DNA from: a virus
Direction: 5' to 3' (one strand)
IMG/VR virus record: IMGVR_UViG_3300043446_002218
Coordinates: 1-32,837 of that record
DNA: 32,837 nucleotides
The position numbers were made by a program, and so were the translations under genes. The notes below the pieces were generated by a model. The model worked only from the letters and a program-made list of their open reading frames with translations, ran no database searches and had not been told where the DNA came from. Shown here piece after piece: positions 13,093-32,837 of the stretch; the stretch's first letter is position 1; every line of letters begins with the position of its first letter.

Positions 13093-15366
13093 CTATGTCC
13101 CCGAATAAACCGCGATGCGGTAGTCAAGACCCAGCAGCGTCATCTTGAGCGGCAGCGTCTGCGAGATCTCGATCGCCTGCTCGCGGTCGTAGCCCAGCAC
13201 TCCGTTCACGCGCTTGATGCCGGTGAAGGTCGGCACCGGCTCGTCGAGCAGCGGGTTGTCCATCAGCCGGAACGCAACCGGCTGGTTGTTGATCTCGAGC
13301 TCCTGCGTGTCCTTCACCACCGCGCTGATCTCGACAATCCGCTTCTTGAAACTCACGCGGCTGCCGGTCTGCAGCTGGATCTCAGCCGGCATTGTTTTGG
13401 CGTACACGGTGAAAGGCAGGCCGACCTCGTAGCTGAAGACCGAGGCCCGGTCGAAGGTCACCGTGCCAGTGCCGCTCACCACCTCGTTGCCCTGCGGCAC
13501 GCCGTCGCAGATCACGTTCACCGTCTTGCGGGTCATCACCAGGCTGGACGCGCTGGCAGCAGCGCCGCCGGTCACCGCGCAGTCGGTGTACACCGCATCG
13601 TCAAACAGTTCGATCAGGTACTTGGTGCCCGCGAACTCCTGCACGATGCCATCACCGCCCTCGGTTAGGATCTCGCTCCCAGACTCTAGCAGCAGCGCAC
13701 CGGAAGCCACGCGCTCGGCCACCGTGTAGATGTCCGTCACGTCCACGCCGACATCGATGAACTCGCCATCGGTCACGAACTCAGACGGCGCGGTGATCTG
13801 CTGGCTGCGCATGATGCTGAATGCCGCCATCGTGCCGTCGGTGGTGTTGGTGAGCAGCAGAAGATCGGCCTCGTCGGTGCTGGTGGCGCGTCTGATCGCC
13901 ATCCGCTGCGGGCCTTTCAGCAGGTGCCCAGACAGCAGCGAGATCCGCTGCGTGATGTAGGTCAGCTGCGTGTCGGCGAACACGAACTCGTTGAGCGACT
14001 TGCCCTGGCGCTGGATGAAGACCGTGCCGCTCTCGACCGACTGCACCCGCGTGCCAGGCTTGATGCCGTTGCGGGACACGTTCTTGAACGTGAACGTCAA
14101 CGGGGTGATCGGATCTGATCCCTGCTGCGGGACGAAGAACTCGCCGCCGGTGGTGAACACCTGGAAGTCGCGGCCGCTGATGATGTCGGTGATGACGTTC
14201 AGATCATTCGTGTCGAGCGTCGCCTCGACTGCGTCATCGTCCAAGTTCTCGGTCGGCACGAACTCGTAAAAGAGCCCGATCTTCGACCCCCAGACCGTGC
14301 TGGGCCTCGACTTGCTGCCCCCGAAAAAGAGCCGGCCCTCGTGAAATGTCACCGTCCTCGGCCACCCGCGATTGGCAGACCAGACATCCTCGTAGTTGTG
14401 CTCGAGCTCCCAGCTGCCGGCAGCAACCGCCGACGTGTTGAAGAACGGGTACTCGACCACCGCGTTGACCACGCTCGCGCTGACGTACTGGACAATCCGC
14501 GCACGGCCCTGCGGGCTCACGTTGACGTACTGATTGACCGATTGCGTCGTCCATGTCGTGAGCGAGTAGGTGCTGGTGTTGTCGGGCGCGGGCGAGAATG
14601 CGACATCCACCGTCGCGACCTTCGTCGAGCCGACATAGTCCTCGATCAGCCGAATCTGGCCAGACCCTGTGCCGCCAGTGATCGTGACGTACATGCCGTT
14701 GTACTGATCATCCGTGCTGCTGGCGGTCGACTTCAGCGTGATCGTTGTCGTTGTCCCGGCCTGCGCTGTCCCAGTGTCGTGATGCGTGGTGGATGCCGTC
14801 AGCGTGATGTTGCCGCTCACCGCGCTCGGCGTCAGCGTCGATCCGTTGTTCGTATGGAAGTCGATGTTGAATGCGTACTTCGGGATGCTGTCGAACGTGA
14901 TCGTGGTGGCCGTCCAGGCGCTGTCGCTGGTGCGCTGGATCTGCACCGGCTGCAGGTCGGGATGCACCACGATCAGCGTGTCAGCCGATTGTGTCCAACA
15001 CATGTCGTCGACAATCGCGCTGGTGATGCTCGAGACAGACAGGTAGTTATTCCCGCTGCCGTTGATGTTGGTGATCAGCGAGCCATTCTTGATGACGTAC
15101 ATGCGCTGATGCACGAAGCAGAGCATGTAGCTGTCGTCGACAGAGAACTGGAACGACACCAGGCGCACCCCGTCCGATGCGTTGCTCGGGAGCTCTGCGA
15201 CATACTTGGTGCCAGGCCGGCGGCGCATGCCACCCTGCGGCTGGATCAGGACATTGGTGGCCTTGGCCAGCGCGTTGTTGTAGGCCTGCAGGTCGACTCG
15301 GGCCCGCAGCAGGGGATCGAGCTCGCCCGTCGAGAAGTTGCTCTGCAGGTCGACGAAGCGCGGCAT
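13093..15366 (-). CDS. Tail nozzle protein (tail tubular protein B-like)
   Basis: A 757-residue beta-rich protein. Its start (FSTGELDPLLRARVDLQAY followed by an Asn-Val-Leu-Ile-Gln-Pro-Gln-Gly-Gly run and RRRPGTKYV) is the hallmark of podovirus tail nozzle proteins equivalent to T7 gp12. The middle holds Ser/Thr/Gly-rich beta segments, as in other nozzles. It would form the distal tail tube that docks fibres and the ejection channel. The ATG at 15,364-15,366 shares one base with the stop of the HNH gene; a longer frame from 15,402 runs into that gene and lacks a good ribosome site. Confidence 0.88.
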   Translation of the reverse strand: MPRFVDLQSNFSTGELDPLLRARVDLQAYNNALAKATNVLIQPQGGMRRRPGTKYVAELPSNASDGVRLVSFQFSVDDSYMLCFVHQRMYVIKNGSLITNINGSGNNYLSVSSITSAIVDDMCWTQSADTLIVVHPDLQPVQIQRTSDSAWTATTITFDSIPKYAFNIDFHTNNGSTLTPSAVSGNITLTASTTHHDTGTAQAGTTTTITLKSTASSTDDQYNGMYVTITGGTGSGQIRLIEDYVGSTKVATVDVAFSPAPDNTSTYSLTTWTTQSVNQYVNVSPQGRARIVQYVSASVVNAVVEYPFFNTSAVAAGSWELEHNYEDVWSANRGWPRTVTFHEGRLFFGGSKSRPSTVWGSKIGLFYEFVPTENLDDDAVEATLDTNDLNVITDIISGRDFQVFTTGGEFFVPQQGSDPITPLTFTFKNVSRNGIKPGTRVQSVESGTVFIQRQGKSLNEFVFADTQLTYITQRISLLSGHLLKGPQRMAIRRATSTDEADLLLLTNTTDGTMAAFSIMRSQQITAPSEFVTDGEFIDVGVDVTDIYTVAERVASGALLLESGSEILTEGGDGIVQEFAGTKYLIELFDDAVYTDCAVTGGAAASASSLVMTRKTVNVICDGVPQGNEVVSGTGTVTFDRASVFSYEVGLPFTVYAKTMPAEIQLQTGSRVSFKKRIVEISAVVKDTQELEINNQPVAFRLMDNPLLDEPVPTFTGIKRVNGVLGYDREQAIEISQTLPLKMTLLGLDYRIAVYSGT

Positions 15367-15893
15367 CAGAGCTTCTCTATCCGATTGCGAACTGCAGCCC
15401 AAGTAACGCCATAGTCATTGGCGATGGACTGGTACGATTCACCAGCAGACCGGCGCAAAACGATGGCAGGGAGATCGCTTCGCGGTATTTTGATTTGCCG
15501 AGGCTTTCGATTGCGTGCGCGATATGCATCTATAGATGCTTGCCTGCAAACCTTGCAAACACCCGCGACTAAGCTGTGACCTCGCTTGCATAGCTGTTTG
15601 CGTCTGCGAGGCTTTTGAGCCTTGATGTTTTCGCTATGCGTCACAGCTTTAAGATGAGTCGGGTTCACGCATATCCTGTTGTTGCAGATATGGTGGACAT
15701 CATGACCATCAGGGATCTTCCCGGTAAATGACTCATGAGATGCGCGATGGGCTCCCATTCTTCTGCCTTGATAGCTGATCGTTCCATACCCAGCAGAATT
15801 GGGCGACAACATCCAAAGCCAGCATCCGCTCATAGGCTCGGCAATGCTTCGCTCACGAATGAGATCTTGAAGCGGTTTGTCGTGCGCCTTCAT
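15366..15893 (-). CDS. Free-standing HNH homing endonuclease
   Basis: A 175-residue nuclease. The HNH core is clear: DVHHIC at 65-70, then NNRICVNPTHL with N77 and H80. Cysteine pairs (C70/C75 and C102/C113/C116) could hold structural zinc. The C-terminal 35 residues (SYQSIANDYGVTWAAVRNRI) form a helix-turn-helix likely to read the target site. The gene sits between the two tail-tube genes, which are normally adjacent, with one-base spacing on both sides and lower GC than either (29 of 60 in the line at 15,481). This is typical of an invading mobile endonuclease gene tucked between essential genes. It probably cuts the same junction in related phages. Confidence 0.9.
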   Translation of the reverse strand: MKAHDKPLQDLIRERSIAEPMSGCWLWMLSPNSAGYGTISYQGRRMGAHRASHESFTGKIPDGHDVHHICNNRICVNPTHLKAVTHSENIKAQKPRRRKQLCKRGHSLVAGVCKVCRQASIDAYRARNRKPRQIKIPRSDLPAIVLRRSAGESYQSIANDYGVTWAAVRNRIEKL

Positions 15894-22927: not shown

Positions 22928-23523
22928 GCCCCCTGCAACATTGGTCGCGAGCCCCTGCGACTCACTGCCGCCAGCCTGGCGGCGCGGCGCTCACCGAGCT
23001 CACGCTGCAGCCCAGACTCCAGACCCTTGCGCTCGGTCTCAAACGCGCTGGTATCGAACGCAGCGATCGTCGGTGCGGTCGGTGCTTCTGGCGCTGTCGG
23101 CTTCTTCTCAGTGAAGGTCGGCAGAGGCTTCGGTTCTTCGTAGGTGTAGGGCGTGCGACGGGTCTCGTATCCGGCCAGGCCGAATAGACCCCAGCGCGGA
23201 ACCCGCTCTTCAATGATTCCAGTCCGGGTCACGGTCGGGCTCGCCTTCACGGCTGCGAGTTCGCTCTCGTAGGCCTTCAACCGTTCGCTGTAGGCCGCCA
23301 TCTGGGCCTCGTAGGCCGGGAAGCTCACCGTCTCGTAGGTTGATTTGGCAGCCTCGAAGGGCTTCATCTGCTCTTTGACGCCGGCTTGGTAGGCAGCGAG
23401 TGAAGACTCCTGCTTGCCGGTGAGCGCCTCGATGTCTTTGCGGAACTGGGTAGATAGACGATCAATGCCAGCGGTCTTGCGACGCAGAGCGCGTTGCGCG
23501 AACTGTGGCAGTTGAGTTGCCAT
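22924..23523 (-). CDS. Coiled-coil virion-type protein
   Basis: A 199-residue protein. Its first half is helical with many Ala, Glu, Lys and Tyr (about 25-95), then comes a Pro-rich linker (about 128-155, with repeated Pro/Thr/Ala), then a basic helical end. I do not recognise the family. Its place in a block of small genes between the cupin and the spike-base genes, and its ATGA coupling, suggest a structural or assembly protein. A short stretch WGLFGLAGYETRR in the middle might contact a membrane or partner. Confidence 0.62.
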   Translation of the reverse strand: MATQLPQFAQRALRRKTAGIDRLSTQFRKDIEALTGKQESSLAAYQAGVKEQMKPFEAAKSTYETVSFPAYEAQMAAYSERLKAYESELAAVKASPTVTRTGIIEERVPRWGLFGLAGYETRRTPYTYEEPKPLPTFTEKKPTAPEAPTAPTIAAFDTSAFETERKGLESGLQRELGERRAARLAAVSRRGSRPMLQGA

Positions 23524-23969
23524 CAGAGCATCATCCCTGTGCCCAGCTGCGGGCCGGTGATCCCGAGCTCCGGCGTGAGGCGCTCTTGCGAGAGGAGCGA
23601 ACGTCTGCCGCCTCGCGTCCGGGCCTTGAGGGCCGACGCTTCAGCAGCCGCGGCCTTGCGGCGCTCTTCGTCTGCAGCGGCTTGTACCTCGCGGGCCTTG
23701 TTCTCCATCGCGAGCTTGTTCTCTTGATACTGGAGCTGGCTGGCCTGGAAGGCCTGCCGGGCGGTCTCAGCCTGCGTCTGGAGGGCTGCAGCCTGCTGGC
23801 CGTAGGTAGCAGTCTGCTGGGCGATTGCCTCGCGCATCGCAGCCGCATCACGCTCCTGCTGCTGCAGTTGGATCGCTTGCTGCTCACGCGCTGCACGGTT
23901 GGCCTGGCGTGCCTGGTTGGCCTGGTAGGCCGTACCGAGAAGAATCGCTCCAGCAATCAAGAATGGCAT
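23523..23969 (-). CDS. Membrane-anchored or core-type Gln/Ala coiled-coil protein
   Basis: A 148-residue protein with a short hydrophobic start (PFLIAGAILLGTAYQAN) and then about 90 residues of continuous coiled coil very rich in Gln, Ala, Glu and Arg. The end is basic and Gly-rich. Small proteins with this layout appear among podovirus internal or tail proteins. Since the main ejection block lies elsewhere, this may be an extra one, or a tail-fibre chaperone. The start shares one base with the preceding stop, and GGAGCGACTG ATG gives a good ribosome site. Confidence 0.62.
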   Translation of the reverse strand: MPFLIAGAILLGTAYQANQARQANRAAREQQAIQLQQQERDAAAMREAIAQQTATYGQQAAALQTQAETARQAFQASQLQYQENKLAMENKAREVQAAADEERRKAAAAEASALKARTRGGRRSLLSQERLTPELGITGPQLGTGMML

Positions 23970-24292
23970 CAGTCGCTCCTGACCAGCACTTCGTCTATCC
24001 GATCCAGGTCTGTTTCACTCGTTGCGTGAACACAGAACCAGACCGCGTCCTCGAGCGCCTCGATCCGGTGATGAACCCCAGCTGGTATCGTGATCACGGC
24101 CGGCGCTGTGTATCGCTTCTCGACACCGTCTGCCTCGACCGTCACCTCACCACTCGCCAGTATCGACAGGTGGTCATAGTGATGCGCGTGGGTCACCGCA
24201 AAGTGACCCCGCGGCAGCATCATCTGTCTCGCATACAACCCAGCTGAGAAGTGATGCCTGATCTGCAGATCTATGTCGATCATGCAGACCAT
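23969..24292 (-). CDS. Single-domain cupin protein
   Basis: A 107-residue cupin. The metal-binding motif is visible as HFAVTHAHHYDHLSILASGE, and the second as PAGVHHRIEAL. The domain fills the whole protein. Cupins can be isomerases, dioxygenases or simple metal-bound ligand sensors, and no substrate can be read from the sequence. Single cupins occur among structural genes of several podoviruses, where the role is unclear; sugar modification of host surface or virion is a guess. Start choices are 24,292 and the ATG at 24,283; neither has a clear ribosome site. Confidence 0.8.
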   Translation of the reverse strand: MVCMIDIDLQIRHHFSAGLYARQMMLPRGHFAVTHAHHYDHLSILASGEVTVEADGVEKRYTAPAVITIPAGVHHRIEALEDAVWFCVHATSETDLDRIDEVLVRSD

Positions 24293-24344
24293 TCTATTGG
24301 ATGTTGTACAGAGGAGGGAATAGCGCGGTATCGGAGCGGTATCG

Positions 24345-24530
24345 CTACTCGATAGACTTCAGAAACTGCCACTGCTCGACCGTCACCTCGTTCATCTCAT
24401 CATGGGGTTGTTTAATGTGCTCGCACATTTCCCAAGGTGGACAGTCGCAGTCACTCGATGGCAGCGAGTAATCGGTGCGTTGAGTCACTCTCGGTCGCGC
24501 TGTAGGTTCGTACCGTTTAGCTTTTCCCAT
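24345..24530 (-). CDS. Small Cys-containing unknown protein
   Basis: A 61-residue protein with a basic start (MGKAKRYEPTARPR) and a central CDCPPWEMCEH that could bind zinc with a nearby His. The ATG follows GTGAGG with good spacing. It is the first gene after the terminator downstream of the terminase and so leads the cupin-portal block. I do not recognise it. There are 52 bases without a gene between it and the cupin. Confidence 0.6.
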   Translation of the reverse strand: MGKAKRYEPTARPRVTQRTDYSLPSSDCDCPPWEMCEHIKQPHDEMNEVTVEQWQFLKSIE

Positions 24531-24558
24531 AGAACCTCACCCGTGGGGGGTGTTCTTT

Positions 24559-24586
24559 GACTGCGAGGGTTCGTGGTATCGCAGTC
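24559..24586. other. Perfect 8 bp inverted repeat in the leader of the cupin-portal block
   Basis: GACTGCGA (24,559-24,566) and TCGCAGTC (24,579-24,586) pair around a 12-base loop. The element lies about 30 bases upstream of the small Cys-containing gene on the minus strand. There is no T-run on either side, so it is not a simple terminator. It could be an operator or an RNA structure in the leader. Confidence 0.5.
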
Positions 24587-24762
24587 ATCAGACGCTCTGG
24601 TTTATCTAGGCTGGCTTCCGGTTTCCCGTCCACCCCGAGCAACTGGCCCCGTTCGCTTGCGCTACTGAAGCACCACCCGATTCGCCACGTTTATCCGAGT
24701 CGGTCGCGTCAACCTTCTCGAGGGCTGGGTTAATGGCCCCCGTTCCCGGTTGGCGTGGCACC

Positions 24763-24838
24763 AAAAGAAAAACCCTTGCAGCTGCACCCGGTGAGAACCC
24801 CTGGGAGACGTTCAGGGGCGGGCGCATGTGCAAGGGTT
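24763..24838 (-). terminator. Terminator after the terminase large subunit
   Basis: Outer arms AACCCTTGCA (24,771-24,780) and TGCAAGGGTT (24,829-24,838) form a 10 bp stem enclosing a second hairpin (CCCCTG/CAGGGG). On the minus strand the stem runs into TTTTTCTTTT, the classic terminator tail. It ends the early and packaging transcript. The gene-free stretch 24,531-24,894 holds this terminator, the inverted repeat at 24,559 and no convincing promoter or gene; the 75-residue frame there looks spurious. Confidence 0.82.
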
Positions 24839-24894
24839 CTGATGTCGGTTCTCACGCCAACGGTGCGTACACTATCCAAACGGCCCGGAGGCTG

Positions 24895-26439
24895 TCAAGC
24901 AAACACGTCGAAATCCGCACTGGCAGTGGTCTGATGAACCATCGGAGCGCCGGCCATGTTGCTTTTCCGCACCATCCGGTTGTACTCGCCGCCACCCAGC
25001 ATCAGGTAGCCGAACGAATCAGCGATATGTGAATACTCGTTCTTGTTGGGCGAATCCTTGAACCGCTCCTGTCCAGCGCCGATCGCCACCCTGCGGAAAA
25101 AGTAACCCCCTCCCAGAGCCTTTCTGAGGAGCTTGCAGGAGCGATTGACGATCAGCCCAGGCTTACCCATTACCAGCCTCTGCATGGGGCTTGCAGCGGC
25201 CTCCCTGCGTACCTTGAAGTCGTTGCTGGCAGTGGGTTGCGCCTTCAGTCCCAGGGTGCGCAGGAAGTCGAAGCTGGTCACCTCATAGATCGCGTCCCTG
25301 GCCATGCCGGCGGGATCCCCCCAGAGCATGACCTGGTGGTTGGGGTATCGCTGGTTGAGCTCTGCGAGCAGCTGCAGGCCGAACCGCTCGAGGCCCATGT
25401 CGAAGGTCACGATCTCGTGGTGGATCAGCCAGCGGCCGTTGGGCAGGCGCTGCCCGATGGTGGCTGCAGGGGTGAGACCAAAGTCCAGGCCCACCTGGAT
25501 GGGTACGCCAGGCTCGACCTCAGTCTCACCGCTCATGGTGGCGTCGTCGTACTCTGGCCAGACGGGTCTGCCCTCTTGAACGTAGGTGTACTGGCCCGCG
25601 GCATAGCACCGGATCCAGTCCAGGTTCTTACCCGGGAGCATCTGCTGGTAGTAGCCGGCGGGGAGGTTGTTGATGTTCTCTGCGGCAGGGTTGGTCTTCC
25701 ACCACTTGCCGGCAGCCAGCATATGGTCATTTGCCTCGGGATTGTCCGGCAGGTCGTCCGCGGGAACCTCGATGACGCCGCCTGGTTGCTTCCAGAACTT
25801 CCAGCCTCGGGGCTTTTCCTTCTCGGCCATGTTGTGCCACCAGTGGTCATCATCCATCGGGTTGGTATCCATCCAGATGCCGTGCCAGGACGCGCCACCA
25901 TCACGCTTGGTGGGATACCTGCCCACCCGGTGCGTGAGGCCGTCTATGACCGCTTTGGGGAGCTCACGGGCCTCGTTGACCCATGCGCCTGTCAGTTCGA
26001 GTGAGAGCAGCTTTCTGACGTCCTTGGGCTGGTCGAGCGCCAGAAAGATGACCTCGCAGTCGATACCGGCAGCATCACCGCGGGCGGGCAGCCGAATGTG
26101 ATGGGTGATGGGTGGCGTCCAGAGCATGTTGCCGAACGTCGACTCGGGGAAGAGATCCAGCCAGGTCTTGATGGTCGTGGTCTTCAGCATGGGGTAGCTG
26201 TTGCGTACCACTGCCCAGCGCGAGTACCGGATGTTGTCGATGGGGGAGGGCTTCTGTTTGACGGCCTGGATGAAGATCTTGGCCGCGCAGGCGTAGCTCT
26301 TCCCGGATCCCACCGGGCCCATGACACCAGCCACGAACTGCCGGGATTGGATGAAGTCGTAGACCACCGGGCTCTCGCTGAAGTCCAGCTTCAGTCCGGT
26401 GACGCCGACTTGCTTCGCGCTCTGTTCTTTGGTTCTCAC
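24895..26439 (-). CDS. terL: Terminase large subunit (ATPase-nuclease)
   Basis: A 514-residue DNA-packaging motor. Walker A is GPVGSGKS at 41-48, and a Walker B-like strand is LELTGAWVNEARE at about 147-159. The C-terminal RNase H-like nuclease has the acidic residues of GLDFG (D319), WGDPAG (D375) and HIADSFGY near 475. It cuts replicated DNA into genome units and drives it through the portal. The GTG start at 26,437-26,439 overlaps the previous stop as GTGA, behind AAGGA. The end of the protein is a short flexible tail. A strong terminator follows. Confidence 0.95.
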   Translation of the reverse strand: MRTKEQSAKQVGVTGLKLDFSESPVVYDFIQSRQFVAGVMGPVGSGKSYACAAKIFIQAVKQKPSPIDNIRYSRWAVVRNSYPMLKTTTIKTWLDLFPESTFGNMLWTPPITHHIRLPARGDAAGIDCEVIFLALDQPKDVRKLLSLELTGAWVNEARELPKAVIDGLTHRVGRYPTKRDGGASWHGIWMDTNPMDDDHWWHNMAEKEKPRGWKFWKQPGGVIEVPADDLPDNPEANDHMLAAGKWWKTNPAAENINNLPAGYYQQMLPGKNLDWIRCYAAGQYTYVQEGRPVWPEYDDATMSGETEVEPGVPIQVGLDFGLTPAATIGQRLPNGRWLIHHEIVTFDMGLERFGLQLLAELNQRYPNHQVMLWGDPAGMARDAIYEVTSFDFLRTLGLKAQPTASNDFKVRREAAASPMQRLVMGKPGLIVNRSCKLLRKALGGGYFFRRVAIGAGQERFKDSPNKNEYSHIADSFGYLMLGGGEYNRMVRKSNMAGAPMVHQTTASADFDVFA

Positions 26440-26633
26440 TTGCGTCCTTCAATCAGCATCTTCATGGCGATCACCAGATCACTGGCGGCCTGCTCGGTGA
26501 TGACAATCGTCTCGCTATCCTGGCTGATCTCAAAGTACACCGGGCCACCAGAGAGCGTTTCTGGGTCAATCTCGACCTCAATCCCAATGCCTGGCCCGTT
26601 GTCGATCTCGTAGCGTGTTGGCTTGATCTTCAT
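26436..26633 (-). CDS. Small acidic unknown protein before terL
   Basis: A 65-residue acidic protein, beta-strand-rich in the first two thirds (RYEIDNGPGIGIEVEID and VYFEISQDSETIVI) and ending in a helix with AASDLVIAMKMLIEG. The start follows GAGGTGAGAA and overlaps the previous stop. I recognise no family. Position alone, next to the terminase, hints at packaging, but other small genes in this chain look regulatory or unrelated. Confidence 0.65.
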   Translation of the reverse strand: MKIKPTRYEIDNGPGIGIEVEIDPETLSGGPVYFEISQDSETIVITEQAASDLVIAMKMLIEGRK

Positions 26634-26908
26634 TTCTCACCTCGCGCAGCCGCAATCCTGCTGATCAGAACGTACGGCCGGTAAGCCGCGGACATCTCGT
26701 TGTCGGTCACGTCGGTGCGACTTCCATCTGCGAAATTCAGAAAGTAGTAATCAGGCGCAATCGGTCGCTGCTGGTGAATATCGACTACCACGGCAACGTC
26801 ATGGGTCTCCTTGTCTGCCACGAAATCGCCAACCTGGAGTGACTCGTACCAGCGGGGCTCGATCGGGGTATAGCCGCCCGCCATGCGGATGATGTCGTCT
26901 TGGGTCAT
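26630..26908 (-). CDS. Small unknown protein with SH3-like beta pattern
   Basis: A 92-residue protein. After a short helix (DDIIRMAGGY) it has several predicted strands (LQVGDFVADKETHDVAVVVD and APDYYFLNFADGSRTDVT), giving a small beta-barrel look, then a basic helix. No family recognised. Both ends overlap neighbours as ATGA, so it belongs to the coupled chain between the terminase genes. Confidence 0.65.
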   Translation of the reverse strand: MTQDDIIRMAGGYTPIEPRWYESLQVGDFVADKETHDVAVVVDIHQQRPIAPDYYFLNFADGSRTDVTDNEMSAAYRPYVLISRIAAARGEK

Positions 26909-27180
26909 AGTGTGCCTCGTGCTTTTGCGATGGCGGCGCGGGCCTTGTCGTACACGTTCCCAAACTGGGATTGGTCAGTATGAATTGGGTGACTCAGTGA
27001 ATACCGCAGCAACAGATCCAGCGCCTCCAACAGATCAGGCGCGGCTGAGATCAGGCGGGCGTCTTCTGGTACAGACGGGCATCTCTTGTCGTCGTGGAAA
27101 ATCGTTTCGTTGTTCGAGCCGATCACTGTGATGTGCGTTGCGCTCTCTCGGATCGTCCACGGCCCTGGCGTGTGGTTCAT
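26905..27180 (-). CDS. Small conserved phage protein (HTPGPWTI type)
   Basis: A 91-residue protein. MNHTPGPWTI at the start, and DARLISAAPDLLEALDLLLR in the middle, are signatures of a small protein family very widespread in phages and prophages. Its function is unknown to me. I chose the ATG at 27,178-27,180 because the family begins there and the start overlaps the previous stop as ATGA; the frame is open to 27,270, inside another gene. Confidence 0.82.
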   Translation of the reverse strand: MNHTPGPWTIRESATHITVIGSNNETIFHDDKRCPSVPEDARLISAAPDLLEALDLLLRYSLSHPIHTDQSQFGNVYDKARAAIAKARGTL

Positions 27181-27401
27181 ATCTCCCCCTTGATCACTTT
27201 GGCTGCGTATGCGTAGTAGTTGTACTGCCCTCCAGATCGCTCGTGCAGGCGCTCTAGTATCAGCACACACCGATCACGCTCGGCAGCTGCAGCACGCTCT
27301 GCAAAGCGCATCAGAAAGGCTACATCTTTCTCTGGCGTCTCTGATAGCTCCCAGAACGCTCCGGCGTCCAGCGCCATCCGTAAGACCTCGTCCTTGCTCA
27401 T
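27177..27401 (-). CDS. Small helical unknown protein
   Basis: A 74-residue protein, helical and rich in Ala, Glu and Arg, with RFAERAAAAERDRC in the middle, a stretch common in small phage proteins of unknown role. AAGGAG five bases before the ATG at 27,399-27,401, and the ATGA overlap with the preceding stop, fix the start. A longer frame from 27,437 has no such site. Confidence 0.72.
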   Translation of the reverse strand: MSKDEVLRMALDAGAFWELSETPEKDVAFLMRFAERAAAAERDRCVLILERLHERSGGQYNYYAYAAKVIKGEI

Positions 27402-27577
27402 TGCCGCTCCTTGAAGTCTCCGCATTTCTTCTTCCACCCGTACATCCCTGTGTGCGCCTGGTGCATCGTGATGGGCTTATAGAACCGCGGCTTGTGTCCC
27501 AGCCTGCACATGTCCTTCACCTCCCAATACACCTCATGCTTGAAATGCTTGCAGTCATGGCACCAGACCGTCTTCAT
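27398..27577 (-). CDS. Small Cys/His-rich, probably zinc-binding protein
   Basis: A 59-residue protein with WCHDCKHF at 5-12, then a single Cys at 23 (DMCRLGHKPRFY) and a Cys near residue 52 (KKCGDF). Four cysteines and several histidines suggest one structural zinc. It is ATGA-coupled at both ends. The pattern resembles small zinc-ribbon phage proteins, but no family is certain. It falls below common length limits. Confidence 0.7.
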   Translation of the reverse strand: MKTVWCHDCKHFKHEVYWEVKDMCRLGHKPRFYKPITMHQAHTGMYGWKKKCGDFKERQ

Positions 27578-27765
27578 CTCTCCAACCTCCCATTCGGATC
27601 ACCATCATCCTCAACCTGCAGCGCCTCTGCGGGCACCTCGTAGGTCGACCACCGGTGCCCACACTCCACGCAATCCCTGAGACGCCACTTCCACCCGTAC
27701 CGGGTATCGCGCCTGGACTCCTTCACCCTCGACTTCCAGCTCCCACACTCCCCGCACGCACTCAT
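27574..27765 (-). CDS. NrdR-like zinc-ribbon protein without ATP-cone
   Basis: A 63-residue protein. CGECGSWKSRVKESRRDTRY followed by a Trp-Lys-Trp-Arg-Leu-Arg run and CVECGHRWSTYE closely matches the zinc ribbon of the ribonucleotide reductase repressor NrdR: two CxxC pairs, an S-R, basic residues, and TYE. The ATP-cone that follows in NrdR is missing; instead a short acidic tail ends the protein. It may bind DNA as a small regulator. No ribonucleotide reductase is encoded here. The start and stop overlap neighbours as ATGA. Confidence 0.75.
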   Translation of the reverse strand: MSACGECGSWKSRVKESRRDTRYGWKWRLRDCVECGHRWSTYEVPAEALQVEDDGDPNGRLER

Positions 27766-28184
27766 CCCTCTCCCCTGGGTGCCACCACGTTCACGTCAAT
27801 CACCGAGGGCTTCTCATCGTCTTCAGGCCTGTCCAGCAAGCCACTAGCCTTTGCCAGCAACCGCAGCACCTGAACCTTGTCGAAGAGCTCGATCTCGAGC
27901 GTCTGCTGCCCGTCCTTGCCCTTCGTCACCCTCACGTTCTTGATCGCCTGCAACGCATGCTCCGGGATCCTGCTGGCACCCTTGAACTTGACAGTGCCGT
28001 CATCATCCCAATCCATGATGTCCGTGATCTTCGTCTTCGCCATGCAGAGCAACAGGTAAGCAACAGCCTCCCGGTTCTCAACGATCGTGGCTGACCTCTC
28101 GAGCCTGCGCTGTACCGACCGAATCCCTCCCCACCCATCCAGACTCGGTATCGTCGCGCTGAACTTCTGCTTACCCGTAGGCAT
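27762..28184 (-). CDS. Terminase small subunit-like protein
   Basis: A 140-residue protein resembling podovirus terminase small subunits. It has an N-terminal helical DNA-binding part (IRSVQRRLERSATIVENREA), then KITDIMDWDDDGTVKFKGAS with IPEHALQAIKNVRV, and a C-terminal segment IELFDKVQVLRLLAKASGLL that is typical of the family. It would recognise phage DNA and hand it to TerL. The ATG at 28,182-28,184 sits behind AGGAG; an upstream TTG lies in the previous gene. Several small genes separate it from terL, which is unusual but not rare. Confidence 0.8.
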   Translation of the reverse strand: MPTGKQKFSATIPSLDGWGGIRSVQRRLERSATIVENREAVAYLLLCMAKTKITDIMDWDDDGTVKFKGASRIPEHALQAIKNVRVTKGKDGQQTLEIELFDKVQVLRLLAKASGLLDRPEDDEKPSVIDVNVVAPRGEG

Positions 28185-28195
28185 ACCAACACTCC

Positions 28196-28465
28196 TCAAA
28201 ACGGGATCTCTTCGTCCTGCTGACCCTGGTACCCATTGCTCTTGGCCTGCTCATGCGCCGACTGCTGCCCAGCCTGCTGCACCCGATCCCCCAGCGCCAG
28301 GCTGATCCACTTCTCACCCGCACTCGTCTCCTTCGTCCACCCACTCACCCAATACACACTCCCGTCCGGCAGCATCAACCGTCCCTTCAGATTCGGATGC
28401 CGCTCACTCGTCTTCTTCTCGTTCTTGAACAGACTGCCCTGCCCAGGTCTCATCTCGTACGCCAT
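28196..28465 (-). CDS. SSB-like protein with SSB-type acidic C-terminal tip
   Basis: An 89-residue protein. The first 60 residues (GSLFKNEKK, HPNLKGRLMLPDGSVYWVSG and KWISLALGD) follow a compact beta-rich pattern seen in a small phage family thought to be OB-fold-like. The last 30 residues are a Gln/Ser/Gly-rich flexible linker ending in DEEIPF, almost the DDIPF tip by which bacterial SSB recruits replication and repair proteins. It could coat single strands or mimic SSB to recruit host factors. The start at 28,465 follows AGGTGA; a possible second ATG is six bases upstream. The family call is inference; the tail is directly visible. Confidence 0.7.
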   Translation of the reverse strand: MAYEMRPGQGSLFKNEKKTSERHPNLKGRLMLPDGSVYWVSGWTKETSAGEKWISLALGDRVQQAGQQSAHEQAKSNGYQGQQDEEIPF

Positions 28466-28750
28466 CGTCATCACCTTTCTGTGGTTAGGAAAACTTCTAT
28501 AGGAAATACAGGGGAAAATTTTGGGGAGACCCCCACTCGCTACCGGTGAGGGGGAGGGGGCAAGGGTGCCTCGTCTCCGCGCCCGCATGACGCACCCCAC
28601 GCGCACGCCTAGCCGTATGACACCCGGCCTTGCGCCCGCCCGACACGCGACACGGCCTCCCGTGTACAGAAACCATACGTTCGTTTGAGTTTTGTACGGA
28701 ACCCATAGAACGGCCTACAACGCGCTGGGAGGGTGCCAGGCTATGTCCGG
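28466..28750. other. Gene-free region between SSB-like and winged-helix genes
   Basis: This 285-base stretch has no convincing gene. It contains two direct repeats at 28,663-28,677 and 28,693-28,707, a G/C-rich middle with long purine tracts near 28,550, and an AT-rich segment close to the SSB-like gene with a TATAGA (28,496-28,501) that could be a -10 box but has no good -35. A control region or replication origin is possible. Confidence 0.55.
28663..28707. repeat. Pair of 15 bp direct repeats, possible iterons
   Basis: TGTACAGAAACCATA (28,663-28,677) and TGTACGGAACCCATA (28,693-28,707) match at 13 of 15 positions and begin exactly 30 bases apart, about three helical turns. They lie just downstream of a winged-helix protein gene, which is a plausible binder. 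Confidence 0.55.
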
Positions 28751-29662
28751 TCATCCAGCGCCCCGGTCGTGCGCTGTAGGCGATCCTGGCGCGTTCTGGG
28801 CGGTGTCATACACGCCGTCGACAATGCGGTCGGCGTTCAGGTTGATGACCGACTCGAGCAGCGAGGCCAAGCGAGGCGGCGGCAGGCCCTCACCCTTGTG
28901 CCGGTCGAGCACCTCGTCAATCAACGCGCCAATCCGATCAACGTGAACATACTGATCGACAACTTGCATCAAACCTTCGCACTCCGTAGTTACTTCATAC
29001 CCCTTTGCCTTTAGTGTGATTGCGCAACCTTTTGTAGGCCTATTGCCTATTTTTTGAGCATCTTCACACTCGCCACTTTCAGGTTGTCTATGTGGCCGCT
29101 TCTTGAGGCCTTCCCTGATCCGTTTGACTGCCAGCGTTTCGCCCTTCGGCATGGTGTATCTCCTGGTCGGTTGTTGGTTGACCACGGGCTTGACGATGCC
29201 TGCCAGCATCTCCGCGATCATCTGTTGCTGCTTCTTCGGTGGGATCGACTGCATCTTCTCCTCGAGCTCCTTCAAGAATGGTGGCCGTGCGTCCTCTGTG
29301 GTGCTGGCCACCGCGATGGCGTCCAGCGTGCCGATCTGCGGGTCGTAGATCACCCTGATCGTGTCCCCGGTGTATCCCTTGAACCCCTTGCGGATCACCT
29401 CGATGTACCCGTGATCCTTCAGCTGCTTGACGTGCTTGTTGACCGCCTGGCGTCGGATGCCGGACTCCTGGGCGATCCGCTGCTGCGTCACCCAGGTGAT
29501 CCCGGCCCGGTTCGCCCAACTGCAGACCTTCGCCAGAGTCCTGACCGCACCATCTGTCAGCCTGCGGTCTTCCAGTGCCCTGATCGGGATCACTGCGAAC
29601 ATCCGACGTGATGGCGGCTTCTGCTTGACCCTGGCCTGCTTTGGGAGCCTGAGCTCAGTCAT
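28751..29662 (-). CDS. Winged-helix DNA-binding protein, probable replication initiator or regulator
   Basis: A 303-residue protein. After a basic start, residues 25-105 form a winged-helix domain (LTDGAVRTLAKVCSWANRAG, then WVTQQRIAQESGIRRQAVNK and HVKQLKDHGYIEVI) like the N-terminal domains of plasmid or phage replication initiators and lambda O-type proteins. A helical middle is followed by a basic stretch (AVKRIREGLKKRPHRQ) and a C-terminal helical domain. I see no helicase or primase motif. The ATG at 29,660-29,662 follows GAGGACGGGG and overlaps the previous gene by 8 bp; the frame is open further upstream. Direct repeats after its stop may be its target. Confidence 0.72.
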   Translation of the reverse strand: MTELRLPKQARVKQKPPSRRMFAVIPIRALEDRRLTDGAVRTLAKVCSWANRAGITWVTQQRIAQESGIRRQAVNKHVKQLKDHGYIEVIRKGFKGYTGDTIRVIYDPQIGTLDAIAVASTTEDARPPFLKELEEKMQSIPPKKQQQMIAEMLAGIVKPVVNQQPTRRYTMPKGETLAVKRIREGLKKRPHRQPESGECEDAQKIGNRPTKGCAITLKAKGYEVTTECEGLMQVVDQYVHVDRIGALIDEVLDRHKGEGLPPPRLASLLESVINLNADRIVDGVYDTAQNAPGSPTAHDRGAG

Positions 29663-29903
29663 CCCCGTCCTCGAGCCAACCTGCACCCATGCCACGCGGC
29701 ATCGGAGCCCATGCAATCACCCGCGGCCGGTCGATCGGGCTGCCTGCGCCCGCATCACGCCAGAGACGGCGCTCCCGGTCATACCAGCCAATCCAGACCT
29801 CAACCGGGTGGTCGAGCTCCACCAGCACCGTCTCATCGTCTGCCGGCAAGTGCTGCCGCGCCTTGCGCCACAGAATGAGCTCCTGCATCACTGGTCTGGC
29901 CAT
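29655..29903 (-). CDS. Small phage protein, DUF551-like
   Basis: An 82-residue protein with the pattern ETVLVELDHPVEVWIGWYDR, then WRDAGAG and VIAWAPMPRGM. The Trp-Gly-Trp-Tyr and the closing WAPMP are typical of small phage proteins related to DUF551, of unknown function. The acidic end DGDD overlaps the ribosome site and start of the winged-helix gene. Its own start lies inside the preceding zinc-protein gene. Confidence 0.72.
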   Translation of the reverse strand: MARPVMQELILWRKARQHLPADDETVLVELDHPVEVWIGWYDRERRLWRDAGAGSPIDRPRVIAWAPMPRGMGAGWLEDGDD

Positions 29904-30192
29904 TGCGCTCCTTCCACAGTTTCAGCATCACCGCCCGCAGCTGCTCCGCTGCAAGCTCCCCACGCACCCGCTGCACCTCGAGCAGGTAGCGTCGCTTCGT
30001 CCACCGTTTCGATCTCGGGCCAACACTGTCGGGCAGCCGCATGGCCCAGGTCGCTTCGCAATAGAGCCGGTACTGCTCGCTGTGGTTGCCCACCTGGCGG
30101 CCGTCCGGCAGCGTCACCAGCTTCGCGTTGTCGTGTACGTTCCCGCAGCCCATGCATGCAAGTGCCGCATAGCCACCTTCTGTTTCTGCCAC
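29833..30192 (-). CDS. Cys-containing unknown protein overlapping another frame
   Basis: A 119-residue protein. LACMGCGNVHDNAKLVTLPD, GNHSEQYRLYCEATWAMRLP and a basic helical end (SKRWTKRRYLLEVQRV) look like a real small phage protein with a CxxC and a later Cys. The GTG start at 30,190-30,192 follows GGAGGG at somewhat long spacing. Its 5' two-thirds overlap the frame 29,888-30,271 in a different phase. One of the two overlapping parts is probably non-coding, or the two are joined by a frameshift. Confidence 0.6.
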   Translation of the reverse strand: MAETEGGYAALACMGCGNVHDNAKLVTLPDGRQVGNHSEQYRLYCEATWAMRLPDSVGPRSKRWTKRRYLLEVQRVRGELAAEQLRAVMLKLWKERNGQTSDAGAHSVAQGAAALAGRR

Positions 30193-30271
30193 CGTTCAAC
30201 ACCCTCCACGCGCCACCCTCGATCGGGTTGCGCTGCTGACAGTTGCTGCACCACCGCGGCTCGTCGCTCAC
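29888..30271 (-). CDS. Zinc-finger protein whose 3' part overlaps another gene
   Basis: A 127-residue frame. Residues 1-50 look real: WCSNCQQRNPIEGGAWRVL with RRWLCGTC forms a CxxC...CxxC zinc site, and the ATG overlaps the rusA stop as ATGA. From about residue 52 onward the composition becomes Gly/Ala/Arg-rich, like a shadow of the other frame, and no clear domain is left. The gene may simply have a junk-like tail, or ribosomes may shift into the other frame, which contains its own CxxC. Confidence 0.55.
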   Translation of the reverse strand: MSDEPRWCSNCQQRNPIEGGAWRVLNGGRNRRWLCGTCMHGLRERTRQREAGDAAGRPPGGQPQRAVPALLRSDLGHAAARQCWPEIETVDEATLPARGAAGAWGACSGAAAGGDAETVEGAQWPDQ

Positions 30272-30693
30272 TCGAGCACCTCGTGCATGTAGACCTCGAC
30301 GCCAGGCTCGGTCGAATAGGCCTTGCTGACCGTCAGCCTGGCGACCTGCTTGTCATCGACGTAGGCGATGCCGTTGCAAGCGTCCAGGATGGCCTTGGCG
30401 ACGTTGTCCAGGTCAGGCTTGCCCGGCACCGCATCGCCGTTCAATGCGGCCACCTGGCGCTTCACCGTCCAACTGACAGGCACGCCGACCCGGATGTTGA
30501 TCCGCACCGCCATCGGGTGCTCTGACGGCTGCCAGGTGCCCATCGCTGACCTGCAGGCCTCGGCGACCAGGCGCTCCCATGCGACGGTCTTCGCCGGCGT
30601 GTACATGCGCGGCCGCCCGCCGATCGTGCTCACTCGAGGCCGGCCCTTGCCGACAGCCTGGCCCTCGACCGTGAAGTAGACCGCCAGGCTCAT
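30268..30693 (-). CDS. rusA: RusA-family Holliday junction resolvase
   Basis: A 141-residue endodeoxyribonuclease that cuts four-way DNA junctions made during recombination, needed before packaging of branched DNA. The motifs are clear: GKGRPR at 15-20, PDLDNVAKAILDACNG with D94, D96 and K100, and YVDDKQV with D114, which correspond to the catalytic acidic residues and lysine of RusA. It complements the YqaJ/RecT pair on the other strand. Both ends overlap neighbours as ATGA. Confidence 0.95.
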   Translation of the reverse strand: MSLAVYFTVEGQAVGKGRPRVSTIGGRPRMYTPAKTVAWERLVAEACRSAMGTWQPSEHPMAVRINIRVGVPVSWTVKRQVAALNGDAVPGKPDLDNVAKAILDACNGIAYVDDKQVARLTVSKAYSTEPGVEVYMHEVLE

Positions 30694-30893
30694 AGCGGCA
30701 GCCTGATGACGTGGCAGGAGTGATGCAGGGAGCTCTCGCGCCGCTCGCCATCGCGCAGCACTACATGCCGGGTGCCGCTGGGCGTGAAAGGCTCCCGCCG
30801 CACGAACGTGAAGACCTCCCGCGTGCGCTTCAGGATGAACCGGTCACCCGGCTGCAGATTGCGCACCCGCTTGCTAGCAACCAGGCCGCTCAC
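30690..30893 (-). CDS. Small beta-rich unknown protein
   Basis: A 67-residue basic protein with the pattern VRNLQPGDRFILKRTREVFT followed by more strands (TRHVVLRDGERRE) and a His pair near the end. Small SH3-like beta barrels of phages have this look. No family recognised. It lies between the ribbon-helix-helix gene and rusA, overlapping both by 4 bp, so it is an early gene. Confidence 0.65.
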   Translation of the reverse strand: MSGLVASKRVRNLQPGDRFILKRTREVFTFVRREPFTPSGTRHVVLRDGERRESSLHHSCHVIRLPL

Positions 30894-31078
30894 CGCCTGC
30901 CGCCCAGCATCCGGTCGATCCGATCGCGCACGTCGCTGTAGCGCGGCTGCAGGTGCTCCCGGATCAGCGCGTCGATCAGACTGGCCTTGCTGCGCCGCTG
31001 GTCTGTCGCCGCTCGGTCGAGCAGCTCATAGGTGGCCGGCCGCAGCCGCACCAGAAACGCCTTGTTCTGTTCGCTCAT
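30890..31078 (-). CDS. Ribbon-helix-helix DNA-binding protein (Arc/CopG-like)
   Basis: A 62-residue protein. A strand at FLVRLRPATYELLDRAA, then a helix and the turn RRSKASLIDALIREHL, give a ribbon-helix-helix fold, which dimerises and reads short palindromes. It is the first gene of the minus-strand unit and faces the recombinase operon across 195 bp that contains several palindromes, so it is the best candidate for a phage regulator, perhaps controlling both directions. No lambda-like CI or Cro protein is visible elsewhere. An AGATGAGGGGA site precedes the ATG. Confidence 0.8.
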   Translation of the reverse strand: MSEQNKAFLVRLRPATYELLDRAATDQRRSKASLIDALIREHLQPRYSDVRDRIDRMLGGRR

Positions 31079-31134
31079 GTTCCCCTCATCTGGAATCGCT
31101 ACGATACCAGTGACTTGGGAACTGGACTAGCCTG

Positions 31135-31166
31135 AAGTCAAAGACTTACGTTAGGGTTATCCCTAA
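31135..31166. promoter_or_regulatory. Adjacent palindromes, candidate operators
   Basis: AAGTCAAAGACTT (31,135-31,147, 5 bp arms, 3-base centre) is followed by TTAGGGTTATCCCTAA (31,151-31,166, 6 bp arms, 4-base centre), ending 22 bases before the -35 box of the rightward promoter. A third weak pair, CCAGT/ACTGG, lies at about 31,109-31,127. They fit binding sites for the adjacent ribbon-helix-helix protein. I could not find a clear leftward promoter. Confidence 0.55.
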
Positions 31167-31188
31167 TCGCTCTGTACCGTTTGGGTTG

Positions 31189-31217
31189 TTGACAGGCCAA
31201 AAAGACCGGCGTAGAGT
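31189..31217 (+). promoter_or_regulatory. Sigma70-type promoter of the recombinase-RecT operon
   Basis: A perfect -35 box TTGACA (31,189-31,194), a 17-base spacer and a -10 box TAGAGT (31,212-31,217) lead into a leader of about 50 bases before the ATG at 31,274. It should drive all plus-strand genes through the circle join to recT. Confidence 0.82.
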
Positions 31218-31273
31218 TCCGATCTGCGCTACCGCCGTGGTATCGCAAGACCACCGAGAAACAGGAGTCGAAA

Positions 31274-31537
31274 ATGAACATGGACGCAGCACTGATGACC
31301 CGCGACGAATTCATCGAGTTCGCTCACGGGATGACCAACGACGAATCAATCGCCATCCTTGCCGAGCAAGTAGCCGAGCACAACGGAGTCGTTGCGCTGT
31401 ACGGCGACGCCGGCCCAGGATCGGCTCTTCACTTGCACCGCGAGCTTGCCGATCTCCGCAGCATCGAGCGCCAACTTGCCCGCCTCGAGCGCCGCGAGCC
31501 CCGTGAGTTTTTCCTGCGCATTCGCGGAGCGCGTTGA
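31274..31537 (+). CDS. Small acidic unknown protein, first gene of the rightward operon
   Basis: An 87-residue helical protein, acidic in the first half (MTRDEFIEFAHGMTNDESIA) and basic at the end (RQLARLERREPREFFLRIRG). The ATG has an excellent site (CAGGAG, spacing about 6). As the first gene behind a strong promoter it should be expressed early and strongly, which is where phages often put host-takeover or regulatory proteins. No family recognised. Confidence 0.72.
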   Translation: MNMDAALMTRDEFIEFAHGMTNDESIAILAEQVAEHNGVVALYGDAGPGSALHLHRELADLRSIERQLARLERREPREFFLRIRGAR

Positions 31538-31539
31538 TC

Positions 31540-31653
31540 ATGCGCACCGCTGCCTTCATCGCCCTGGCGGCCGGCTTCGGTGCCGCCGCTGCAACCGGCT
31601 CACCCTGGGCGCTGCTGCCCGTTCTGCTGCTCGCGCCGTTCGTCATTCGTTGA
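31540..31653 (+). CDS. 37-residue hydrophobic membrane peptide
   Basis: A tiny frame starting two bases after the previous stop. It reads MRTAAFIALAAGFGAAAATG, then SPWALLPVLLLAPFVIR, giving one or two hydrophobic segments with basic ends. GGAG lies 11 bases upstream. The small size makes coding uncertain, but its position, tight spacing and clean membrane profile support it. No family recognised. Confidence 0.5.
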   Translation: MRTAAFIALAAGFGAAAATGSPWALLPVLLLAPFVIR

Positions 31654-31671
31654 TCCCAGAAAGAGGACGCC

Positions 31672-32328
31672 ATGACCAAGTTCGTTGCTTACTTCCGCGT
31701 ATCCACCGAACGCCAGGGCCAGTCCGGCCTTGGCCTCGAGGCCCAGCAAGCAGCTGTGAAACAATACGCCGACGCAATCATTCACAGTTTCACCGAGATC
31801 GAGTCAGGCAAACACGATGACCGGCCCCAGCTGCAGGCCGCTATCGCAATGTGCAAGCGCAGTGGCGCTGCCCTGCTGATCGCCAAGATCGACCGCCTCT
31901 CACGCCAGGCTGCGTTCCTGCTGACGCTCCGTGACTCAGGCGTGCAGATCGTCGCCGCCGACATGCCGCACGCCGGCACCCTCGAGTTCGGCATCCGCGC
32001 CGTCGTCGCCCAGCATGAGCGGGAGGAGATCAGCCGCCGCACCAAGGCAGCCCTGCAGGCCGCCAAGGCCCGCGGCGTGCGCCTGGGCTGCCCTACCCCC
32101 AGCATCGGCAGCGCAATCGGCGTGGCGGCCATCCAGGCCCGCGCTGACGCCTTTGCCGAGCGCCTGGCACCGGTCATCGCCGACATCAAGCGAGCCGGCT
32201 GCAGCACCCTGCGCGAGATCGCCGCCGCACTGCAAGCCCGCGGTGTAGCGACTCCCCGTGGCGGCACCACCTGGTCGCCGTCTCAAGTGTCCAACCTGCT
32301 TGCCAAACTGGAGACCGTCCATGCGTGA
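31672..32328 (+). CDS. Small serine recombinase (resolvase/invertase family)
   Basis: A 218-residue site-specific recombinase. Catalytic Ser11 is in YFRVSTERQ, with Arg9, Asp50-Arg51 (HDDRPQL), R75 and R78 in KIDRLSR, and the Glu/Arg helix AQHEREEISRRTKAAL near 113-128. The end is a helix-turn-helix-like recombinase segment (STLREIAAALQARGVATPRG and WSPSQVSNLL). It is much shorter than large serine integrases, which have long zinc-bearing C-termini, so resolution of multimers or DNA inversion is as likely as integration. No inverted-repeat crossover site is obvious beside it. AAGAGG precedes the ATG. Confidence 0.9.
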   Translation: MTKFVAYFRVSTERQGQSGLGLEAQQAAVKQYADAIIHSFTEIESGKHDDRPQLQAAIAMCKRSGAALLIAKIDRLSRQAAFLLTLRDSGVQIVAADMPHAGTLEFGIRAVVAQHEREEISRRTKAALQAAKARGVRLGCPTPSIGSAIGVAAIQARADAFAERLAPVIADIKRAGCSTLREIAAALQARGVATPRGGTTWSPSQVSNLLAKLETVHA

Positions 32329-32521
32329 ATCAACACCGCTGTCGAAGGTGCCGATCGGCACCCGCTGGGAGCCCCGCCCTCGCTCATCGATCACCGATGA
32401 GGAACTCTTCATCCAGGCCCACCTGCTCGCCAAACCTGCCCGCAACGGCGGCCGGATCGCCTGGGCGATTGCTTGGGTCACGGCCATTGCTGCGTACCTG
32501 GTCTTTGCGTTCACGCTGTAG
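32321..32521 (+). CDS. Small C-terminally anchored membrane protein
   Basis: A 66-residue protein with a polar, basic first half (PIGTRWEPRPRSSITDEELF) and a single C-terminal membrane helix (IAWAIAWVTAIAAYLVFAFT). The ATG at 32,321 overlaps the recombinase stop by 8 bp. Early tail-anchored proteins of phages may act on host membrane processes or exclude other phages, but nothing in the sequence proves this. The frame is open further upstream, inside the recombinase gene. Confidence 0.7.
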   Translation: MRESTPLSKVPIGTRWEPRPRSSITDEELFIQAHLLAKPARNGGRIAWAIAWVTAIAAYLVFAFTL

Positions 32522-32530
32522 GAGGCCGCC

Positions 32531-32837
32531 ATGCAACAGACCACCACCGGGCGCGAGCTCCGCGAGCAACAGCTTGCGCTCTTCAGTGTCTCGCACGCTG
32601 ATCTCCTGGAACGCTGCCGGCAACAAGCGGTGGCGATCGCCCTCAAGAGAGGGATCGTCAGCATCAACGACATCCGGGCCAGCATCGACCTGCCGCCCGG
32701 CGTCCACCCGTCAGTCCTGGGAGCGGTGTTCCGCTGCTCCCTGTTCCGCGCCATCGGCTACACCGAGGCGCTTCACCCTGCGGCTCACGCTCGAGTGATC
32801 CGCGTCTACGCCCTGAAGGAGACCTCCGATGGTCAGT
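32531..32837 (+). CDS. Small unknown protein continuing across the circle join
   Basis: The ATG at 32,531 follows GGAGG with good spacing. The frame is open to the end of the window and finishes with TAA at 127-129 of the left end, giving 102 residues on the circle. The protein is helical, starting MQQTTTGRELREQQLALFSV, with RCRQQAVAIALKRGIVSIND in the middle and a compact second half that could be a winged-helix-like fold (ASIDLPPGVHPSVLGAVFRC). I do not recognise a family. It overlaps the YqaJ gene start by 11 bp and probably works with the recombination genes. Confidence 0.75.
   Translation, partial: MQQTTTGRELREQQLALFSVSHADLLERCRQQAVAIALKRGIVSINDIRASIDLPPGVHPSVLGAVFRCSLFRAIGYTEALHPAAHARVIRVYALKETSDGQ
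32711..32837. repeat. Terminal overlap, right copy (circle closure)
   Basis: Exact copy of positions 1-127. Removing one copy gives a circle of 32,710 bp with an intact gene across the join. Confidence 0.9.

Follow-up and report, generated by a model that had tools for sequence, protein, structure and literature searches.

A candidate Arc-type switch from early to late expression at a divergent control region of uncultured phages

Layout of the genome and its divergent control region

The stretch analysed, hereafter the window, covers an entire 32,837-bp IMG/VR record. Since its first and last 127 bp are identical, it probably represents a complete podovirus genome assembled as a circle. In Pfam and PHROGs scans, the head-tail connector, tail and head genes, the terminase, RusA, a replication initiator and SSB were located on the minus strand, while the plus strand carries a serine recombinase gene and RecE-like and RecT-like genes, the last two being reached from the recombinase across the circular junction. 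An HNH endonuclease gene (15366-15893; PF13392, E 1.2e-12) lies between two tail genes, and a 63-aa protein (27574-27765) matches the NrdR zinc-ribbon domain (PF22811, E 4.1e-8). No tRNA genes were found in the window, which also had no match in Rfam. The nearest cultured phage by terminase was Methylophilales phage MEP301 (74% identity), and positions 30500-32837 had no DNA similarity to phage records.

The two gene sets diverge from a region for which an earlier, sequence-only reading had described a small ribbon-helix-helix (RHH) gene, two palindromes and a sigma70-type promoter facing the recombinase and RecT genes. All of these features are present:

30890-31078, minus strand: Arc-like RHH gene, 62 aa, heading the leftward operon (RusA, replication initiator, SSB, terminase)
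31135-31147, plus strand: palindrome 1, AAGTC-N3-GACTT; present, not conserved
31151-31166, plus strand: palindrome 2 (element C), TTAGGG-N4-CCCTAA with a TAGGG-N4-CCCTA core; conserved
31189-31217, plus strand: early promoter P_R, TTGACA-N17-TAGAGT; 10 of 12 matches to consensus, 0.2 expected
31274-31537, plus strand: first ORF of the early operon, 87 aa; unrelated genes stand in its place in relatives
31672-32328, plus strand: early-operon serine recombinase (PF00239, E = 1.1e-26; phrog_125)

A homologue search with the 87-aa ORF returned no relative, and BLAST showed it to be replaced in related genomes. Positions 31274-31537 are thus a swap site, at which the leader CCACCGAGAAACAGGAG is retained and the gene differs; it is a possible place for anti-defence or host-takeover genes. 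The genes at the divergent region are the RHH gene and this orphan ORF, and a helix-turn-helix repressor gene is absent there. A CI-type repressor was not detected in the proteins scanned, a subset of the ORFs (20 against Pfam, 20 against PHROGs). No antirepressor (ant) gene was identified beside the RHH gene; those neighbours that match a family belong to recombination, replication and packaging.

Palindromes and dyads of the control region

Judged on the window alone, the palindromes are not above chance: the region holds three with arms of at least 5, versus 1.3 in dinucleotide shuffles (P = 0.15), and one with arms of at least 6, versus 0.34 (P = 0.29). Their conservation was followed in relatives, collected as the best 80 of at least 319 confirmed loci in a recombinase search and the best 80 of 207 loci in an RHH alignment search. 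These gave 100 distinct upstream stretches, reduced to 98 by leaving out L145 (wrong start picked) and L101 (MEP301) before motifs were counted, and then to 35 representatives; relatedness was handled crudely, representatives being chosen to have few 8-mers in common. The RHH gene lies divergently upstream of the recombinase in 71 of the 73 regions with at least 400 bp upstream (window included), the two without it, L039 and L099, having short upstream stretches.

The conservation check proposed with the palindromes had a split outcome. Palindrome 1 was rejected as an operator; it occurred in none of the 35 representatives at up to one mismatch, and 3 of the 11 listed clade A loci have it disrupted. 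Palindrome 2, scored as TAGGG-N4/5-CCCTA, held in part, occurring in 16 of 35 representatives at up to one mismatch versus 0.20 in shuffles. Among the 11 representatives in which it and the early -35 were both scored, the distance between them was 33-37 nt in nine and 23-25 nt in two, classes about one helical turn apart, so that helical phase is kept. Such conservation and phasing are what would be seen if palindrome 2 were the main regulatory site, with a second regulator, either a host activator or a phage protein, acting on P_R from upstream. We consider this reading possible but doubtful, as palindrome 2 is unrecognised in 16 of 35 representatives even at two mismatches. It is also unseen in the regions of clades C, D and E, although the RHH gene is present there, and it was rejected on this ground as the main RHH operator. 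By its distribution, palindrome 2 is a separate conserved element and not a site travelling with the RHH protein.

The dyad that does travel with the RHH protein is, on the comparison of relatives, TATC-N5-GATA, which the sequence-only reading had not named. In an unbiased count of trinucleotide dyads over the 35 representatives, ATC-N5-GAT was the top symmetric dyad (22 of 35 versus 1.8 in shuffles), the higher-ranked words coming from the conserved leader that precedes the first early gene. Exact TATC-N5-GATA was present in 24 copies in 20 of the representatives, versus 0.05 in shuffles, and the dyad at up to one mismatch in 24 of them, versus 2.65; neither the same arms at spacings of 2, 3, 4, 6, 7 or 8 nor any of seven control words occurred in the 35. 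Eleven representatives lack the dyad at up to one mismatch. Four of these have a TAGC or TTGC variant instead, and a fifth has a TACC variant that is symmetric; L156, L122, L113, L127, L158 and L177 are not covered by the variant forms. Most sites occupy two places relative to the RHH start codon. The proximal site, about 19-27 nt before it, overlaps the RHH -10. The distal site, about 95-164 nt before it, is on or close to the early promoter: clades C and D have it between the -35 and -10 boxes, clades A and B beyond the predicted start.

In the window, the two places are occupied by the following predicted elements:

31094-31106, minus strand: predicted operator O_L, TATC-GTAGC-GATT, inside a 21-bp dyad (31090-31110)
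31101-31106, minus strand: probable RHH promoter -10, TATCGT, read from the sequence as an extended -10 (TGG-TATCGT) and lying inside O_L
31230-31242, plus strand: predicted operator O_R, TACC-GCCGT-GGTA, with symmetric changes from TATC/GATA in the two arms, immediately 3' of the predicted start

TACC-N5-GGTA, as at O_R, is a clade A form of the operator. The two sites fall in two ungapped 21-mers with dyad symmetry at 8 of 10 positions (31090-31110 and 31226-31246; two versus 0.08, P = 0.003, a measure chosen after looking), and all 11 listed clade A intergenic regions preserve the O_L 21-mer, with A or T as its centre base. The window's three sites, including the remote O3 described below, are all imperfect with respect to TATC-N5-GATA, with 1, 2 and 1 mismatches in O_L, O_R and O3, respectively. 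Because the window holds 70 sites at up to two mismatches versus 54 expected, the operators were not discoverable from it alone. The word GATACC has all 13 of its genome copies within 23050-31239, and the operators account for only some of these. The earlier proposal of a compact control region under a small RHH protein finds support here in an altered form, with TATC-N5-GATA operators in the place given to the two palindromes.

A third site at the late promoter

A scan of 20 records for the exact word gave 0 to 4 sites per genome. In four of five remote stretches examined, the site lay directly after the terminase gene, the exception being L186. The corresponding elements of the window are:

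24329-24341, minus strand: predicted operator O3, TACC-GCTCC-GATA, upstream of the late promoter
24291-24296, minus strand: -10 of the late promoter P_late, TAGAAT, ending 7 nt before the conserved ATG of a cupin-like gene

In the best 80 of at least 595 confirmed terminase loci, the exact word was present in 35 of 62 distinct stretches downstream of terminase (46 of 77 loci). The 68 distinct TAGAAT promoters of this set comprised 38 with an exact site, 8 with one mismatch, 15 with two, and 7 with three or more, one of these 7 being an unrelated TAGAAT in the window. Exact and one-mismatch sites lay at a nearly fixed distance, 42-45 nt upstream of the TAGAAT -10. Over 49 distinct late-promoter sites, information content was 0.96-2.0 bits at the arm positions versus 0.1-0.8 bits in the core, of which 35 versions occurred. 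Within clade A, both late-site arms were changed to TACC/GGTA in L190 and L198, one arm in the window and L197, and none in L194. A TAGAAT promoter with such a site after terminase was not found in MEP301, L273, L274, L288-L291 or L293. Because the P_late -10 ends so close to the conserved ATG, the late messages may be leaderless; the -10-to-ATG distance (24281-24296 in the window) is similarly short in most relatives printed.

O3 has its centre about 49 bp upstream of the predicted start and adjoins a poorly matching -35 (TTGCAT-like). From this position and the poor -35, we give activation of P_late by the RHH protein an even chance. A site at the late promoter fits a switch from early to late expression better than one between lysis and lysogeny. 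The sequence-only reading had offered either a lysis-lysogeny or an early switch without a CI-type repressor; the early switch remains as a candidate, and no evidence of lysogeny was found. Among the proteins scanned with Pfam and PHROGs, there was no integrase beyond the small resolvase-like serine recombinase. A search of a genome collection for prophage relatives of the RHH protein gave 351 peptide-pattern stretches and one with a six-relative RHH alignment gave 79, of which none was confirmed, such pattern searches missing distant relatives.

These observations bear also on a scheme in which the RHH protein would repress all three promoters, the late one included, and so act as a lysogeny or carrier-state repressor, as F55 does for the archaeal virus SSV1. 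O_L and O_R do overlap promoter elements or the start region, and an RHH protein is able to maintain a viral carrier state, as F55 does on the partial account available in PMC9608457. O3, however, stands upstream of the -35 at a fixed distance and not over the promoter. Together with the lack of confirmed relatives in the genome collection and of an integrase among the scanned proteins, this makes repression at all three promoters unlikely.

The RHH protein, its predicted operators and a proposed switch

The 62-aa protein matched an Arc-like repressor PHROG with E = 0.0032 and was unmatched in Pfam at E 0.1. RHH_1 was matched by 4 of 10 relatives (best E 0.002), and the Pfam Arc model by neither the window protein nor these 10. 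A profile comparison with Arc aligned 42 columns at 21% identity (P 1.8e-4, probability 49%). A single-sequence structure model was weak (pLDDT 68) and was set aside for one based on an alignment of 24 sequences, in which AlphaFold placed helices at 14-27 and 31-59 (pLDDT 82); the strand was not formed in this monomer model. The best Foldseek matches were mostly RHH proteins (among them Arc 1PAR, AmrZ and CopG), with probabilities up to 0.99 and none at E <0.001; the Arc-operator complex 1PAR was rank 4 among PDB folds. Arc contacts bases through Q9, N11 and R13, according to the accessible part of PMC12645479, and S35 lies at its dimer-dimer interface, according to an excerpt of PMC2812701. 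On alignment to Arc of the P22 record, R13 and S35 are shared (R11 and S33 of the window protein), whereas Q9 and N11 are replaced by A7 and L9. S33 is invariant in the RHH alignments.

Co-variation was counted over 97 distinct upstreams, L060 (truncated gene) also having been left out. The R13 position was kept in 90, N11 was replaced in all 97, and Q9 was kept in 8. With L, M, I or F at the N11 position and R at the R13 position (n = 79), exact TATC was present in 49 and TATC at up to one mismatch in 71, with exact TACC in 12 and exact TTGC in 5. With T at the N11 position, all 11 upstreams had exact TAGC-N5-GCTA, versus 0 of 79 and 0 of 7 in the other classes. Where K stands at the R13 position, TATC-N5-GATA was missing from all 7 upstreams even when one mismatch was allowed, and TTGC-N5-GCAA with one mismatch was present in all 7; each deviating class is one clade, so that the co-variation amounts to two clades and about two events. 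Because the operator variants go with substitutions at Arc contact positions, the site and the RHH protein are linked, and the RHH protein is very probably what binds the sites. That another phage or host protein binds TATC-N5-GATA, the RHH gene being merely its neighbour, seems quite improbable given this co-variation, the Arc-like geometry of the site and its place on the RHH gene's own promoter; the conserved palindrome 2 does make at least one further binder in the region likely.

In the mechanism that we propose, RHH dimers would recognise 4-bp half-sites with the spacing of the P22 Arc operator (TATC-N5-GATA), and through them the RHH protein would run the divergent control region. At O_L it would block its own promoter, giving autoregulation, and at O_R it would block the early recombination promoter P_R, from between the -35 and -10 boxes in clades C and D and from immediately beyond the predicted start in clades A and B, the window included. 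Repression at these two sites is probable. The dyad of clades A and B, lying after the predicted start, could pair as RNA (in clade B with G-U pairs allowed), but a hairpin in the 5' leader as the function of clade A O_R is very unlikely, since clades C and D carry the motif between -35 and -10, where it is not transcribed from P_R. At O3, next to the weak -35 box, the RHH protein would most likely activate the late promoter of the virion genes, so that one 62-residue protein would switch the phage from early to late expression. We assign a probability of about 0.7 to this explanation as a whole, an Arc-type repressor of the early operon and of itself that is probably also a late activator. 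Its extension to a large group of uncultured podoviruses is a bolder claim, for which we judge the odds to be slightly below even: an Arc-type RHH protein would be their single early-to-late master switch, repressing the early operon and itself and activating late genes, with several protein-operator pairs of changed specificity (TATC, TACC, TAGC, TTGC).

Phage proteins that activate middle or late promoters from near the -35, as the RHH protein would at O3, are phi29 p4 and, on the partial descriptions available, Mu C and Mor. The resemblance is in mode only, and none of the three is known to be an Arc-type RHH protein.

The closest parallel to the control region itself is Arc of P22 immI, likewise a small RHH protein with two 4-bp half-sites 5 bp apart. 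In the P22 record, the Arc operator (14798-14818) overlaps the arc/ant promoter and the divergent mnt promoter, and its half-sites, TAGA-N5-TCTA, follow shortly after TTGACA, between -35 and -10. O_R of clades C and D is likewise placed between the -35 and -10 of the early promoter, whereas O_R of the window comes after the -10. The half-site also differs, being TATC (or TACC, TAGC or TTGC) instead of TAGA. Unlike arc, the RHH gene here has no identified antirepressor gene beside it and heads a replication-packaging operon, and there is a third site, at the late promoter. If the proposed mechanism is true, Arc-type control, in P22 confined to the immunity side-branch immI, would here govern an entire lytic programme. 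The relatives would then also form a natural RHH series, in which operator words change with strand residues, showing how an RHH strand chooses bases.

F55 of SSV1 is a viral RHH protein that controls its own and several early promoters without CI, binding an 11-nt sequence present in several copies (ATAGATAGAGT), as described in the available portion of PMC9608457. With F55 already known to regulate early promoters in a virus, a viral switch built on an RHH protein alone has a precedent. The F55 system differs in keeping a carrier state, in having host RadA as a partner and in using archaeal transcription, and in the same portion of PMC9608457 a late-promoter site is not described for it. MEP301 resembles the window in having recombinase, exonuclease and annealing genes opposite the rest, but its RHH-like protein is distant and placed elsewhere, and the operator and late-promoter signature was not found in it. 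A literature search found no description of this regulator or of its operators in MEP301-like phages. The group spans hundreds of public viral contigs, by the confirmed recombinase and terminase loci, and if the mechanism is true, its order of expression could be tested using a single protein of 62 residues and its three short sites.

Right after the terminase gene, the minus strand also carries a candidate structured RNA (24740-24875) with its own predicted promoter (TTGACA 24893-24898, TAGTGT 24869-24874). It has no match in Rfam and folds far better than shuffles (z -6.7), and homologues were found in L191/L192/L195, L196, L269, L187/L273, L203 and L197. Two interleaved helices, in pseudoknot order, are predicted from seven sequences, in which 95.8% of cells are paired and 8 of 17 pairs are changed on both sides; none of 500 shuffles was as good.
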